Below the pieces are notes generated by a model. That model was given only the letters and a program-made list of their open reading frames with translations. It did not search any database and was not told where the DNA came from. A stretch of 34,812 bases of DNA, from positions 1 through 34,812 of the forward strand of contig DAIDAX010000004.1 of NCBI GenBank assembly GCA_027310405.1. The letters run 5' to 3'. This DNA is from a bacterium. Its GTDB lineage: Archaea; Aenigmatarchaeota; Aenigmatarchaeia; CG10238-14; SCSR01. The translations under genes were made by a program, and so were the position numbers. Position 1 is the first letter of the stretch, and each line of letters opens with the position of its first letter. Of the stretch, positions 8,155-29,630 are shown piece after piece.

Positions 8155-9702
8155 ATGTCAATTCTCAAACTCGATGGTATGGAAGTAAGAGATTATCAGA
8201 GAAATATTGCTGAAGTTGCAAGTGAAAAAAATACTCTCGTCGTTCTGCCGACTGGAATGGGAAAAACTCTTATTGCAGTACTAATTGCTGCAAAACGTTT
8301 GGAAAAATTTCCGGAACAAAAAATTTTGATTATGGCGCCGACACGTCCGCTGAATGCACAACACCAAAAGACTTTCGAAAAACTTACCACAATAGACAAT
8401 GAAGAAATAAGTTTGATAACTGGAAAGGTTTCTCCGAGCTCTAGGAAAGAAATTTACAAAAATTCTAAGATTGTTGTTGCAACTCCACAGACGATTGAAA
8501 ATGATTTGAAAAACGAACGACTTTCTCTAGAAGATTTTTGTTTTGTGACTTTCGATGAAGCGCATCGTGCAGTGAAAGATTATGCATATCCATTCATCGC
8601 AAAAAAATATATGCTACAATCAAAGAATCCACTGATACTCGCGCTAACAGCTTCTCCAGGTGGAACTTCAGAAAGGATAAACGAGACTTGCAAAAATCTT
8701 TTCATCAAAGCCGTGGAAATCAGGACAGAACATGATACAGACGTGGAAAAATATGTGAAGCCGATTGACAGAGAATTTATTTATGTAGATTTTCCGGAAG
8801 ATTTCAAAAAAATAAGAGACTTAATGTACGAAGTCTTGCACGAAGATATTTTGTGGTTGAAAGAGAAACATTACATACCAATTACAAATCCTCCGAAGCA
8901 CATGCTCATTGTATTGCAGAAAAGGATTGGACAAAGATATTCTGAAACAAAAAATTTTGCAAACATTTGGGCATTGATCAGATCTGCAGAAGCAATTAAG
9001 CTGCAGCACGGAATAGAACTTCTCGAAACACAGGGAATAAATTTCCTCTACGATTATTTGAAAAAATTTGAGAAGAGCAACAAACGAACTGACAAGAGAC
9101 TTATGAAAAATGGAAAGATAATTGAGGTAATGGAGCTTGCAAGGAAACTTTACGAACAAAATGTAGAGCATCCGAAATTGAAAAAAGTGAGAGAAGTTAT
9201 TAAAGATGTTCTGAAAGAAAAACAAAACGCGAAGATAATTATTTTCGCAAACTTCCGAGCTACTGTTGACAAGCTAAAAAATATTTTAGATGATGAAGAA
9301 ATAAAATCCAAAATTCTTTTGGGTCAGACAGTGAAAAATGGAAAAGGAATGACACAAGATGAGCAGATAGAAACTTTGAAAGAATTTTCAGATGGAGAAT
9401 TTAACGTTTTGTGCAGTACGTCTGTTGGCGAAGAAGGCTTGTCAATTAGCGATGTTGATGCAATAGTTTTTTACGAACCTATTCCAAGTGAGATTCGGTC
9501 GATACAGCGAAGAGGTAGAACCGGAAGAACAGCTCCGGGAAAAGTTGTTTTCCTAATCACGAAAGGAACGAGAGATGAATGGTACTATTTTGCTTCATTG
9601 AAAAAAGAAAAAAGAATGAGGGGAATTTTGTACAGCTTGAAGAAAGGTAAGAAGCTGCAACAAAAGAGAAATCTTATAGACTGGACGATAAGTGAGAATT
9701 GA
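8155..9702 (+). CDS. Superfamily 2 DNA helicase, Hef-like helicase part
   Basis: LPTGMGKTLIA, FDEAHRAV, ALTASPGG, STSVGEEGLSISDVDAIVFYEPIPSEIRSIQRRGRTGR. Confidence 0.92.
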   Translation: MSILKLDGMEVRDYQRNIAEVASEKNTLVVLPTGMGKTLIAVLIAAKRLEKFPEQKILIMAPTRPLNAQHQKTFEKLTTIDNEEISLITGKVSPSSRKEIYKNSKIVVATPQTIENDLKNERLSLEDFCFVTFDEAHRAVKDYAYPFIAKKYMLQSKNPLILALTASPGGTSERINETCKNLFIKAVEIRTEHDTDVEKYVKPIDREFIYVDFPEDFKKIRDLMYEVLHEDILWLKEKHYIPITNPPKHMLIVLQKRIGQRYSETKNFANIWALIRSAEAIKLQHGIELLETQGINFLYDYLKKFEKSNKRTDKRLMKNGKIIEVMELARKLYEQNVEHPKLKKVREVIKDVLKEKQNAKIIIFANFRATVDKLKNILDDEEIKSKILLGQTVKNGKGMTQDEQIETLKEFSDGEFNVLCSTSVGEEGLSISDVDAIVFYEPIPSEIRSIQRRGRTGRTAPGKVVFLITKGTRDEWYYFASLKKEKRMRGILYSLKKGKKLQQKRNLIDWTISEN

Positions 9703-10352
9703 TGGAATCCCAAAAAATTTTCAAATCTGAGAAAAAAGTTGTTGTTGTGACTGATTACAGAGAAAGAGAAATTGCTGACTTGTTAAAAGAATCTGGAGCG
9801 ATTGTTAATATTTTAAATCTCGAAATTGGAGATTTTGTTTGTAGTGACAGACTTGCGGTCGAAAGAAAAACACATAGCGATTTTGTATCTTCAATAATTG
9901 ATGGTAGAATTTTTGAGCAGACTGAAAATCTTCTGCATAATTTTCAAAAAGCTATAGTTATTGTTGAGGGGAGTTCGAACAGAAACATAAATGAAAATGC
10001 ATATCGTGCTGCGCTTGCAAAAATTTTGGTTGACGGAGTTAGTGTTATCAGCACAAAAAATCCGAAAGAGACTGCGCAGACAATTTACTGGTTGGCGTAC
10101 AAAGAGCAGATAGAAAACAAATCTCCACTGGCTTTCAGAGTTGGGAAAAAACCAAAAGAGGAAAAAAGGCTAATCGAAGAAATCGTTGCTAGTTTGCCTG
10201 GAGTTAGTTCAGTTTTATCCAAACGTTTGTTGGAACATTTCGGATCAGTTGAAAAAATATTTTCTGCGAGTGAAGAGGAGCTTGCAAAAGTAAAAGGTGT
10301 TGGAAAGAATCTAGCGAAAAGAATAAAGAAACTAGCAACAACTAAATACTAG
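9702..10352 (+). CDS. ERCC4/XPF-type nuclease with C-terminal HhH2, Hef nuclease part
   Basis: VVVTDYREREIADLL, LEIGDFVCSDRLAVERKTHSDF; HhH SLPGVSSVLSKRLLEHFGSVEKIFSASEEELAKVKGVGKNLAKRI. Confidence 0.93.
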   Translation: MESQKIFKSEKKVVVVTDYREREIADLLKESGAIVNILNLEIGDFVCSDRLAVERKTHSDFVSSIIDGRIFEQTENLLHNFQKAIVIVEGSSNRNINENAYRAALAKILVDGVSVISTKNPKETAQTIYWLAYKEQIENKSPLAFRVGKKPKEEKRLIEEIVASLPGVSSVLSKRLLEHFGSVEKIFSASEEELAKVKGVGKNLAKRIKKLATTKY

Positions 10353-15378: not shown

Positions 15379-15738
15379 ATGGTAGAAAAAAAAGGAATAC
15401 TTATCACGTTTTCAATAAATACTCAAAAAGTGAATCCTACGCAGAGGACTGTCTTCTTCAGAAAACTTTACGGATGGAAGCAAGTAGTTCCGAATGAAGA
15501 GACGGAAAAGAAGTATGAATATGAAAGACCGGGAATACTCGACGAAGTGCCGCACGAAAAAGTCAATCCATCTTCATTCATTGTCCCTGAAGATCAGGCT
15601 GATAAAATTTTTGAATTCTTCAATGAATGGAGCAATAAAGTTATGTGGAGAACTTTCGAAGTATTATTAGACAATCACATGCAGAAAATCTTCCGAGATA
15701 TGGAAAAGTTTTTCTCAGAGAATGAGGAGGAAGTTTGA
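15379..15738 (+). CDS. Hypothetical protein in the Cdc48 operon
   Basis: 119-aa ORF; stop overlaps the Cdc48 start by 4 nt. Confidence 0.75.
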
Positions 15739-18032
15739 TGGCTACTGAAGAAAAAGAAATTCGTTTGAAAGTTGGAGAATTAACTGCACGTGAAGAAGCT
15801 GGAAGAGGAGTTGTGAGAATCGATTCTGCGAACATGTCAAAACTTTCCATACACGAAGGAGACATTGTCGAGCTCGAGGGAAAGAGAAAGACTGCTGCGA
15901 TTGCTGTTCGTGCTTATCCTGCTGATGTCGGAATGAACATTATACGAATGGATGGAATCACTCGAAGAAATTCTGGATCTGGAGTTGGAGAAATTGTAAG
16001 AATTCGAAAGTCGGATGTGAAAGAAGCAAGAAAAGTTACGATAGCTCCTGCGGAAAAAGGGATGATCATTCATGTTTCTCCAAACTTGATTAAACAAAAT
16101 ATTTATTTGCGTCCAGTTATGAAAGGCGACATCATTATTCCATCTCCTGTTGTGCGCAGACGTTCACGTGGTGGAAATATTTTTGAAGAATTTTTTGGAG
16201 TGGACTTTGAAGATTTCTTTTCTCCCTTCACTCCATTTCCAGCTGAAACGAGATTTGTTGTAACGCATGTTGAACCGAAAGAAGCAATTGTAAAAATTAC
16301 AGACGCTACTGAACTAGAAATTTTACCGGAACTCCCAGAATCGATGAAACTTGAAGAACGTGCAATACCTGCAGTAACTTACGAAGATATCGGTGGAATG
16401 CGAACTGTCATACAAAAAGTTCGTGAAATGATTGAGCTTCCACTGCGACATCCTGAATTGTTCGAACGTCTTGGTGTAGAACCACCGAAGGGAGTTTTAC
16501 TCTACGGACCACCGGGAACTGGGAAAACTTTGCTGGCGAAAGCTGTAGCGAACGAAGCTGGAGCTAATTTCATTTCGATATCAGGTCCAGAAATCATGAG
16601 CAAGTGGTACGGACAATCTGAAGAGAACTTGCGAAAAATTTTCGAGGAAGCAGAAAAAAATGCGCCTTCAATAATTTTCATCGACGAACTCGATTCAATT
16701 GCTCCAAAAAGAGAAGAGGTTACTGGGGAGGTTGAACGAAGAGTTGTTTCACAACTGTTGACCTTGTTGGATGGACTGAAGAAACGTGGAAAAGTAATAA
16801 TTATCGCAGCTACGAATAGACCGAACGCAGTCGATCCTGCTCTGCGAAGACCAGGAAGATTCGACAGAGAAATTGAAATTCCTGTGCCAGACAGAATCGG
16901 ACGTTTGGAAATTTTGAAAATTCATTCACGAAACATGCCGATGTCTAAAGACGTTGACTTGCAGTGGCTCGCAGACATAACTTACGGATATGTTGGTGCG
17001 GATCTTTGGGCGCTTGCAAAAGAAGCAGCAATGTCTGCGTTGCGTAGAGTTCTTCCAGACATAAAATGGAAAGAAGAAACCGAGCTTCCGAAAGAAGTCA
17101 TGGAGAAACTTGTAGTGACGAAAGAAGATTTCACAAACGCTTTGCATATGGTTGAACCTTCTGCAATGCGAGAAGTTCTTGTAGAAATTCCGAAAGTTAA
17201 GTGGGACCAAATTGGTGGACTGGATGAAGTAAAAGAAGTTTTGAAGGAAATGGTTGAATGGCCACTGAAGTATGCAGATAGTTTTACAAGAATGGGTATC
17301 GAACCTCCGCGAGGAATTCTTTTGTACGGACCGCCGGGAACTGGGAAAACTTTGCTGGCGAAAGCTGTTGCGAATGAAAGCGGTGCAAACTTCATTTCAA
17401 TTAAGGGACCAGAACTTCGCAGCAAGTGGGTTGGAGAAAGTGAGAGAATGGTTCGTGATTTGTTCAGACGCGCAAAGCAAGTTTCGCCTTGTATAATTTT
17501 CTTCGATGAGATTGATGCACTTGCACCAAGAAGAGGTGCTATGTACGGAGAACATGCAACAGAAAGCATCGTTTCGCAACTGTTGACAGAAATGTCTGGT
17601 TTGGAAGAATTGAAAGGAGTTGTCGTGATTGCTGCGACAAACAGACCAGACATGATTGATCCGGCTTTACTTCGTCCTGGAAGATTCGATAGACAAGTGT
17701 TGGTTCCTGCTCCAGATGAAAAAGAAAGATTGGAAATTTTCAAAGTGCACACGAAGAATGTTCCGTTGAAAAGTGTGAGCTTGGATCATCTTGCGAAAAT
17801 AACTGAAGGATTTTCTGGTGCGGATATAGAAGCTCTCGTGCGAGAATCTGCAATGAGTGCGTTAAGAGAAAACATAAAGTCGAAGGAAATAAAGATGAAA
17901 AATTTCGAGGAAGCTTTGAAGAAAGCGACACCGAGCATCACAAAAGAAGTCAAGACCTACTACGATAAGTTTATTGAGCGTCAGAGAAAGATTCGAGAGA
18001 AGGAAGAAGAGGCAATCGCTTACATTGGGTGA
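15735..18032 (+). CDS. Cdc48/VAT-type AAA+ ATPase (N-domain, D1, D2)
   Basis: Two Walker [18 protein letters not shown], Walker [15 protein letters not shown] and [32 protein letters not shown]; ends ...EEEAIAYIG. Confidence 0.97.
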
Positions 18033-18038
18033 AGAAAA

Positions 18039-18539
18039 ATGAAAAAGAATTTTTCAAAACAACTCGAAGAAGTAGAAAATTTATCACAAATGTTTTCTCT
18101 AGTGAAAGAAGTCGTCAGAATTTTTACGGGAAGAGAGCGAGCGGGTCTGATGGTCGGATTTGCTGATTTGGGTGGTGAACCTGGCGCGTTCATTGGTGCA
18201 TTTCATCCAGTCGGATCAAATTTGATTGTCTTGAACAAGACTCCAATGCGTGTTGTTGAAGCAACTCGTCCAGAATTGTACAAAGAATATTGTTTCCACT
18301 TGATTTTACACGAATATTTGCATTCGATTGGAATTCTCGACGAACAGAAAAATAGAATTGCAACTACACTAATTTCTAAAATGGCTTTTGGAGAAAATCA
18401 TCCTGTGACAATCATTTCTAAAGATATGCCCGCGTTGTTTCCTGAAGTGATGATGTCAACTTTTATGTGGCGACATCTACCGATTCGAAATATAGAAATA
18501 GCAAACATTGATGAACCAAACGTAAACTATATCGGCTAG
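18039..18539 (+). CDS. Putative metzincin-like zinc metalloprotease
   Basis: HLILHEYLHSIGILDE = HExxHxxGxxD; 6-nt gap after Cdc48; ends ...NVNYIG. Confidence 0.65.
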   Translation: MKKNFSKQLEEVENLSQMFSLVKEVVRIFTGRERAGLMVGFADLGGEPGAFIGAFHPVGSNLIVLNKTPMRVVEATRPELYKEYCFHLILHEYLHSIGILDEQKNRIATTLISKMAFGENHPVTIISKDMPALFPEVMMSTFMWRHLPIRNIEIANIDEPNVNYIG

Positions 18540-19058: not shown

Positions 19059-19538
19059 TCAGTTTGCTTCGTGCTTCTGTTCCAGTACGCTATTGGCGAG
19101 TAAATCTGCTTTGGAGTTTTTCTCGCGATCAATCTGAAACCAGCGAACTACTTTGAAAAATCCTTCGAGCATCTTTATCTGAATGAGAAGTTCCATTAGT
19201 TTTCGTTTTCTTATTCTGTATCTTCCATTCAATTGATTGACTAAAAGTTTGCTGTCGGTAAAAATCACAACTTTGTTTCTACAGTACTTCATCGCAATTT
19301 CCAGTGCACGTATTGCAGCTTGATATTCAGAAAGATTGTTTGTTGAGTTTCCAATAAATTCTTTGTACTCTTCCAAAACTTTTCCGGAATCGTCTTTGAC
19401 CATTATTCCGATCGCAGATGGACCAGGATTACCTTTGCTCGCGCCGTCGATGTTTATGTAGAGTGAATTGATGACGCGAAAATCTTTTTTGTTTTCGAAT
19501 TCGTTTGTAAGTTTTTGTTGCATGAAAAATAATTCCAA
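19059..19538 (-). CDS. rnhA: Ribonuclease HI family protein, complete catalytic set
   Basis: IDGASKGNPG, NLSEYQAAIRAL, FTDSKLLVNQL, REKNSKADLLAN. Confidence 0.88.
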   Translation of the reverse strand: MELFFMQQKLTNEFENKKDFRVINSLYINIDGASKGNPGPSAIGIMVKDDSGKVLEEYKEFIGNSTNNLSEYQAAIRALEIAMKYCRNKVVIFTDSKLLVNQLNGRYRIRKRKLMELLIQIKMLEGFFKVVRWFQIDREKNSKADLLANSVLEQKHEAN

Positions 19539-19873: not shown

Positions 19874-20224
19874 TTATCCTAAGATTTTCCCAGCTTTATT
19901 TTTTTCTCTCGGAACATTAACGAAAGAAACTGTTCTTCCTTTTGACAAATTCCAAACTTCTTCTGCCAGTTTTCTCAAATCGTCGTCTTTGATTGCATAC
20001 TTCATCTGTAATTGATTCACAATCAATTGGCTGTCGGAAATTACCTCAATGTCCTCTTTTGGAAAAGCTTTCAGCGCTTCAATCACAGCCAGATATTCTG
20101 CGACATTGTTCGTAATTCCTTTCTTCTGAAAGATTTCCACTTCATTTGTGTCTTCTACAACGTATATGTACTTTCCAGTTTTTCCAGAGCCATCTGTGTA
20201 GATTCGAAGCATTTTCAACAACAA
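19874..20224 (-). CDS. Second ribonuclease HI-like protein, fourth catalytic Asp replaced
   Basis: YTDGSGKTG, NVAEYLAVIEAL, SDSQLIVNQL; C-terminus REKNKAGKILG* where KAD is expected. Confidence 0.8.
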   Translation of the reverse strand: MLLKMLRIYTDGSGKTGKYIYVVEDTNEVEIFQKKGITNNVAEYLAVIEALKAFPKEDIEVISDSQLIVNQLQMKYAIKDDDLRKLAEEVWNLSKGRTVSFVNVPREKNKAGKILG

Positions 20225-21851: not shown

Positions 21852-22049
21852 TCAGCCTATATAGTTAAGATCTTTTTCGTGCTCTTTGTGCAATTCGATG
21901 TATTTTTGTAATTGCTCTTCGACAAAATCTTCCATCGTTTTTGCACGTTTGGATTTCTTCATCTTTTTTTTCGGTCTCCATTCAAGGTGAACGTGCTGGT
22001 GCATATATAATTTATTTGGGCGAAAGTTTAAAAATAGTTTACTATTCAA
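21852..22049 (-). CDS. Small charged protein ending in YIG (true start may be internal)
   Basis: ...MKKSKRAKTMEDFVEEQLQKYIELHKEHEKDLNYIG*. Confidence 0.5.
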   Translation of the reverse strand: MNSKLFLNFRPNKLYMHQHVHLEWRPKKKMKKSKRAKTMEDFVEEQLQKYIELHKEHEKDLNYIG

Positions 22050-29192: not shown

Positions 29193-29630
29193 ATGCCAGT
29201 AGTTGGATTCACATTAAAGAATGTAGAAGCTAACAGGACAAAGGAACAGATAATGACTGGAAACATAAACATAAACTCTTCGAACAAAATCGATAGCGTT
29301 GAAGAAAAAGAAATTTCTGTCTTCAGCAAAGATCCCTTGCTTAATATTTCTTTTGAATTCAAAACAGAATTTGACAAACTTGGCAAAGTCGAGATGCAAG
29401 GCGAAGTTTATTATTTGTCTGATGACAACAAGAAAGTTTTGAAAGACTGGCAGAAAAATAAAAAACTTCCTACAAACGTTGATGTAGAAGTCCAGAATTT
29501 CTTGTTCAGGAAATGTTTGACTCTTGTGAACAGTGTTTCCGAAAATATGGAACTGCCTCCTCCAATAAATTTCCCGATGGTCGTTCCGAAAGAAAAAGAG
29601 GAAGAAGAAAAAAGCAAGTACATTGGATGA
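29193..29630 (+). CDS. Conserved archaeal SecB-like protein ending in YIG
   Basis: NISFEFKTEFDKLGKVEMQGEVYYLSDDNKKVLKDWQKNKKLP...PPPINFPMVVPKEKEEEEKSKYIG*. Confidence 0.6.
   Translation: MPVVGFTLKNVEANRTKEQIMTGNININSSNKIDSVEEKEISVFSKDPLLNISFEFKTEFDKLGKVEMQGEVYYLSDDNKKVLKDWQKNKKLPTNVDVEVQNFLFRKCLTLVNSVSENMELPPPINFPMVVPKEKEEEEKSKYIG

Follow-up and report, generated by a model that had tools for sequence, protein, structure and literature searches.

We analyzed a 34,812-nucleotide (nt) stretch of an Aenigmatarchaeota genome (GenBank assembly GCA_027310405.1, contig DAIDAX010000004.1, positions 1 to 34,812), hereafter called the window, and within it a gene for a protein of 166 amino acids (aa) that we refer to as zincin. 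We lean toward the view that this protein is a cytoplasmic metallopeptidase of the zincin type, small in size, and that it docks on the 20S proteasome via a flexible C-terminal tail of the form Tyr-hydrophobic-X (Y-Φ-X). We infer the 20S binding, zinc binding, peptidase activity, and role of the protein; what we observe directly is its zinc-site sequence, the invariant and widely shared tail, the swap of this tail with the hydrophobic-Tyr-X (HbYX) tail in orthologues, the pocket residues of the proteasome alpha subunit, and the synteny within the phylum. The genome containing the window amounts to 537 kb in 82 contigs. The gene and its parts are as follows.

18039–18539, + strand: zincin gene, predicted mini-zincin-like metallopeptidase of an archaea-wide family without a name, 166 aa (alignment and profile evidence)
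18309–18344, + strand: motif HEYLHSIGILDE, residues 91–102 of zincin (conservation in a 99-sequence alignment)
18516–18536, + strand: C-terminal end of zincin, PNVNYIG, predicted to be flexible (alignment; predicted local distance difference test (pLDDT) below 50 at residues 160–166)

Zincin belongs to a conserved archaeal family

The coordinates and translation of the open reading frame (ORF), its motif, and the 6-nt gap between the stop codon of the upstream gene (ending at 18032) and the zincin ATG (18039) agreed with the initial annotation. As a single sequence, zincin gave no match in Pfam, NCBIfam, or PDB, and a scan of genome contigs with it returned no relative; the alignment-based scan then located relatives at 269 places in GTDB genomes. 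Our details of these relatives and their loci cover the best 80 of the 269 places, which have archaeal titles throughout and include Thermoplasmata, Methanoperedens, Bathyarchaeota, Methanothrix, Micrarchaeota, Altiarchaeota, Asgard lineages, Hydrothermarchaea, and ANME-1. Within the Aenigmatarchaeota, the zincin profile matched 31 of 156 genomes. A match was present in 12 of the 57 genomes searched, counting the genome of the window itself, and the viral contigs scanned contained no relative. These data confirm that the ORF is a real, conserved gene.

Conservation was counted over 99 aligned family sequences from across the archaea. Residues V22, R34, G36, N61, I63, N66, F86, E92, Y93, H95, G98, E102, and Y164 are invariant. 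Loss of HExxH from the family had been named beforehand as a possible refutation of a protease assignment, and the motif, which is that of the zincins of clan MA, turned out to be almost invariant: Glu-92 and His-95 occur in 99/99 sequences and His-91 in 96/99, the exceptions all lying in one genus with REYMH.

Predicted fold and enzyme class

The structural model built from the 99-sequence input reached a pLDDT of 82.2, compared with a lower value of 76.6 for an earlier model from an 11-sequence input, and it places an active-site helix at residues 78–96. Its fold matches were YbeY, selecase, TTHA0227 (PDB entry 2ejq), and thermolysin, all of them weak and none with an E value below 0.001. 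Weak Pfam matches to Zincin_1 (PF06262) were obtained with 37 of the 99 sequences (best, 1.8e-4) and none with the window gene alone. The window protein therefore looks like a small-type zincin and is predicted to be a distant mini-zincin.

The motif had initially been read as HExxHxxGxxD, with the Asp as third zinc ligand, and assigned to the metzincins. This pattern fits the window member, but the Asp is not family-wide, as position 101 is occupied by Asp (73 sequences), Ser (17), Asn (6), or Glu (3). Because Asp-101 is found in only 73/99 members whereas Glu-102 is present in 99/99, Glu-102 appears to be a more promising third-ligand candidate. Downstream of the motif, no alignment column contains Met in more than 26 of the 99 sequences, leaving no Met-turn candidate. 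With neither a conserved third-ligand Asp nor a Met-turn, the metzincin class (MA(M)) was rejected.

An invariant Y-Φ-X tail at the C-terminal end

Tyr occupies the third position from the end (P3) in 99/99 zincins. It is followed at P2 by Ile (81), Phe (13), Leu (3), Val (1), or Tyr (1) and at P1 by a variable residue. In the predicted model, the tail is disordered, with a pLDDT below 50 over residues 160–166. Because the tail is invariant, predicted to be disordered, and always located exactly at the C terminus, the usual criteria would class it as a docking motif.

The YIG ending that zincin was noted to have in common with the upstream Cdc48 is not a chance coincidence. The pattern TAYATHGGNTRR occurs five times in the window, compared with 0.10 expected from shuffles, and four of these occurrences are gene ends. 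Genome-wide, the bare YIG DNA pattern is not enriched (seven matches versus eight for the reversed control); the signal resides in which genes end with the pattern and not in its frequency. Five YIG-ending genes were assigned in the genome. One lies elsewhere and encodes a PAC2-family protein, and four lie in the window, namely zincin and the following three.

15738–18032, + strand: Cdc48, a CDC48 subfamily AAA ATPase, ends AYIG (profile match)
21852–21962, − strand: YIG-tailed microprotein, 36 aa from the likely ATG; the ORF is open to 22049
29193–29630, + strand: 145-aa protein of a family without a name, ends KYIG; near Cdc48 in several relatives

In the Aenigmatarchaeota, PAC2 ends with YIG in 46/46 sequences, and CDC48-type AAA proteins have Tyr third from the end in 49/50, of which 44 end with YxG (including 21 YIG and 19 YVG). 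The microprotein ends Y-I-X in 18/18 members read, and most aligned members of the 145-aa family end with YIG. Y[IVLF]x ends were found on 11 of 533 neighboring ORFs, and several of these 11 are Cdc48 itself or dubious ORFs. A tail common to several proteins points less to a protease that binds Cdc48 only than to a receptor shared by all of them, for which the 20S proteasome is the likeliest candidate.

Y-Φ-X and HbYX tails on known and putative proteasome partners

Two archaeal proteasome factors, PbaA and PbaB, are members of the PAC2 family. In the window's genome, the PAC2 protein with the YIG tail matched PDB entry 3vr0, which we take to be Pyrococcus furiosus PbaB, with an E value of 6e-64, compared with 1e-25 for PbaA (PDB entry 3wz2). 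The last three residues of P. furiosus PbaB, Gly-Tyr-Leu, bind and activate the 20S proteasome, and the alpha-subunit substitution K68A impairs this activation (PMC3605417). For the human 20S, a motif with Tyr at P3 and, next to it, an aromatic residue at P2 has been reported (PMC8907193).

We also read the C-terminal ends of these proteins in 22 zincin-holding genomes of other archaea, where a few ends were not reliably readable. The best readable PAC2 matches nearly all end with Y[IF]x; one ends with YYS, and the zincin of that genome also ends with YYS. A second PAC2 paralogue mostly ends with MYG or MYR, most readable PAN ends are M[YF]x, and several Cdc48 proteins end with MYR, IYG, or AYG. 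The Bathyarchaeota Cdc48 sequences that were read end with TPVA. Cdc48 and PbaB carry an HbYX tail in some lineages and a Y-Φ-X tail in others. Subunits of the 20S proteasome were found in 56 of the 57 genomes searched, and the alpha subunit of the window's genome keeps the residues aligned with Gly-34 and Lys-66 of Thermoplasma acidophilum. In the simplest reading, Y-Φ-X and HbYX would be interchangeable tails for one pocket, and zincin would dock there too.

Separately, one genome contains four tandem PAC2-family genes (G007:C41:4125-7535) and two further copies elsewhere.

The Cdc48 neighborhood

The upstream gene had been called Cdc48, which its match to TIGR01243 bears out (1066 bits against a cutoff of 803). 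Its ATG overlaps the stop codon of a 119-aa ORF at 15379–15738, as read from the sequence. Because of this overlap and the short gap to zincin, the 119-aa ORF, Cdc48, and zincin look like a single transcription unit. The proposed pairing of zincin with Cdc48 holds for about half of the loci within the phylum: Cdc48 is the neighbor of zincin in 16 of 30, preceding it directly in 14 and following shortly after it in 2. Cdc48 was found near zincin in only 5 of the 80 GTDB loci, apparently all from Aenigmatarchaeota, and the pairing was not seen outside this phylum in that set. Clustering of the neighborhoods of 72 zincin loci revealed no archaea-wide partner gene.

Two of the other YIG-tailed genes also lie near Cdc48 in a number of genomes. 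The microprotein (36–50 aa, basic, probably helical, ending EKDLxYIG; L392-L408) has matches in 17–18 genomes; in most of them it is no more than ~15 kb away from Cdc48, and in two the distance is 0.05–0.6 kb. The 145-aa family (L311-L330) is present in 35 of the 57 genomes; the distance of its gene from Cdc48 is ~1 kb in two genomes and 10–12 kb in three. Pfam and PDB searches with this family gave no convincing match; a SecB-like identity, suggested by its LPPP-FP end, is supported by no profile match and was rejected. The zincin-Cdc48 pairing, present in about half of the loci of the phylum, is a real feature of this phylum and part of a small Cdc48 neighborhood of Y-Φ-X-tailed genes.

Other observations were made in and around these genes. 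Directly downstream of Cdc48, one genome encodes a small YIG-ending protein (L059:443-784, L351:1096-1509), presumably DUF3467-like, which is a further Y-Φ-X candidate. Cdc48 frames of 1200–1830 aa with the match split in pieces (G012, G019, G021, G036, G039, G046, G047, G052, and G054) suggest inteins in the Cdc48 of several Aenigmatarchaeota. Elsewhere in the window, judged by their translations only, overlapping genes at 8155–9702 and 9699–10352 encode a helicase and an ERCC4-type nuclease, like a split Hef protein, and two neighboring RNase HI-like ORFs are found at 19059–19538 and 19874–20224 (−).

Proposed role and alternative explanations

If zincin docks on the 20S proteasome in the same way as PAN, Cdc48, and PbaB do with their HbYX tails, its tail would be inserted into the pocket where two alpha subunits meet, with the free carboxylate toward the pocket lysine. 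Because Cdc48, the PbaB orthologue, the 145-aa protein, and the microprotein of the Aenigmatarchaeota carry the same tail, they would probably share the seven pockets with zincin or compete for them. At the proteasome entrance, the most plausible tasks of zincin would be to trim or clip substrates before entry or to free them of a modifier or a blocked end, alongside unfolding by Cdc48. It may also have a regulatory role, filling pockets that Cdc48 and PbaB require. Whether there is, more generally, a second archaeal docking code that has gone unrecognized, in which a C-terminal Tyr-aliphatic/aromatic-X brings PbaB, Cdc48, a dedicated metallopeptidase, the microprotein, and further small adaptors to the 20S core particle, seems to us an evenly balanced question.

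Several observations weigh against docking of an active peptidase on the 20S. The chief ground for caution is the register of the tail: archaeal HbYX work places the essential Tyr at P2, and zincin has it at P3. Within ~6 kb of zincin in the 80 GTDB loci, no proteasome alpha gene was found, and PAC2 was found once. Conservation also extends to the FDRSS segment directly before the tail, which would be unnecessary in an inert linker. Finally, in genus g30 (L008, L009, L010, and L178), zincin has REYMH instead of HEYLH, with the tail YLR, so that an active-site His is lost; this genus is a probable inactive lineage. Because the protein and its Tyr tail are kept there, a non-catalytic adaptor role is conceivable in this genus. 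We consider it rather unlikely that zincin as a whole is a catalytically inactive, zincin-fold docking adaptor, an explanation that would itself be compatible with docking, given that Glu-92, His-95, Gly-98, and Glu-102 are kept in 99/99 members and His-91 in 96/99, with the tail kept throughout.

The P3 register could also mean that Y-Φ-X tails dock elsewhere than on the 20S alpha ring, for instance on an adaptor or hub at which Cdc48, PbaB, zincin, and the small proteins come together, and PAC2 paralogues ending with YIG and MYG that coexist within one genome could have different receptors. We regard this as unlikely, since the PAC2 protein that ends with YIG is orthologous to PbaB, for which 20S binding via these very residues has been proven, Cdc48 is HbYX-tailed in other archaea, and no single candidate receptor appeared. 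A role of the C-terminal Tyr in the enzyme itself, either as an active-site or supporting residue that replaces the Met-turn or as part of an autoinhibitory tail, is suggested by the mini-zincin Acel_2062, which has a C-terminal Tyr at the place of the Met-turn Met (PMC3890501), and would be in line with the conserved FDRSS. The tail is unstructured in the model, however, the protein always ends exactly two residues past the conserved Tyr, and the same tail is found on an unrelated AAA ATPase, PAC2, the microprotein, and the 145-aa protein, all of which makes this explanation improbable. The initial annotation had proposed that zincin works with Cdc48 on DNA-protein crosslinks in the manner of Wss1/SPRTN, a model to which the HExxH motif and the adjacency of the two genes within the phylum lend some appeal. 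Among the 99 members there is a single SprT-like match (E = 0.13), and no Wss1-type family was among the listed families. In addition, no DNA-binding region is evident in the 166-aa protein, and the linkage to Cdc48 was not seen outside the phylum. We therefore abandoned the Wss1/SPRTN relation as highly improbable.

Significance and comparison with known systems

The finding that we judge stronger than the Cdc48 pairing is an archaea-wide predicted metallopeptidase with what we infer to be a proteasome-type docking tail, together with small proteins sharing that tail. Most proteins known to dock on the 20S are ATPases, chaperones, or activators. If our interpretation is correct, zincin would add a new type to the list of proteasome partners and possibly be a simple counterpart, similar in role without being homologous, of Rpn11, the metallopeptidase of the eukaryotic lid. 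The Y-Φ-X tail would also offer a direct route to listing proteasome partners in uncultured archaea, as an HbYX search such as ProEnd (PMC11475706) would generally miss Tyr-hydrophobic-X tails. In open-licence papers, we found no description of the zincin family, no report of a C-terminal YIG in proteasome partners, and no archaeal Wss1/Cdc48 pair of the kind initially proposed.

Among known enzymes, zincin appears closest to the Zincin_1 family of mini-zincins (PF06262, DUF1025; Acel_2062, PDB entry 3e11, and TTHA0227, PDB entry 2ejq), which are short and cytoplasmic and have HExxHxxG followed by an acidic pair, with little sequence after the motif. The two differ in that the invariant residue of the zincin family is Glu-102 and not the Asp, and the Y-Φ-X tail is here a separate feature. 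YbeY (UPF0054) has the spacing HxxxHxxGYxH, similar to that of the zincin motif, and provided the top-probability fold match (PDB entry 7y7o, probability 0.75, template modeling (TM) scores of 0.47/0.52), but with an E value of 0.48; one of the 99 zincins matches its profile PF02130 (E = 0.18), and zincin has the Glu of HExxH. The Zincin_1 homologues reported in PMC3890501 are bacterial.

As for the tail, the HbYX activators PAN and Cdc48/VAT resemble zincin in having a free C-terminal tripeptide with Tyr, a hydrophobic residue, and a variable last residue. Their order is hydrophobic-Tyr-X, in contrast to Tyr-hydrophobic-X in zincin, which with Tyr at P3 in 99/99 members falls outside the canonical HbYX definition. 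PbaB likewise has a flexible C-terminal tail with a Tyr within the last three residues. It belongs to an unrelated sequence family, and the P. furiosus protein ends with GYL, with Tyr at P2, whereas its orthologues in the Aenigmatarchaeota end, like the zincin of the window, with YIG.
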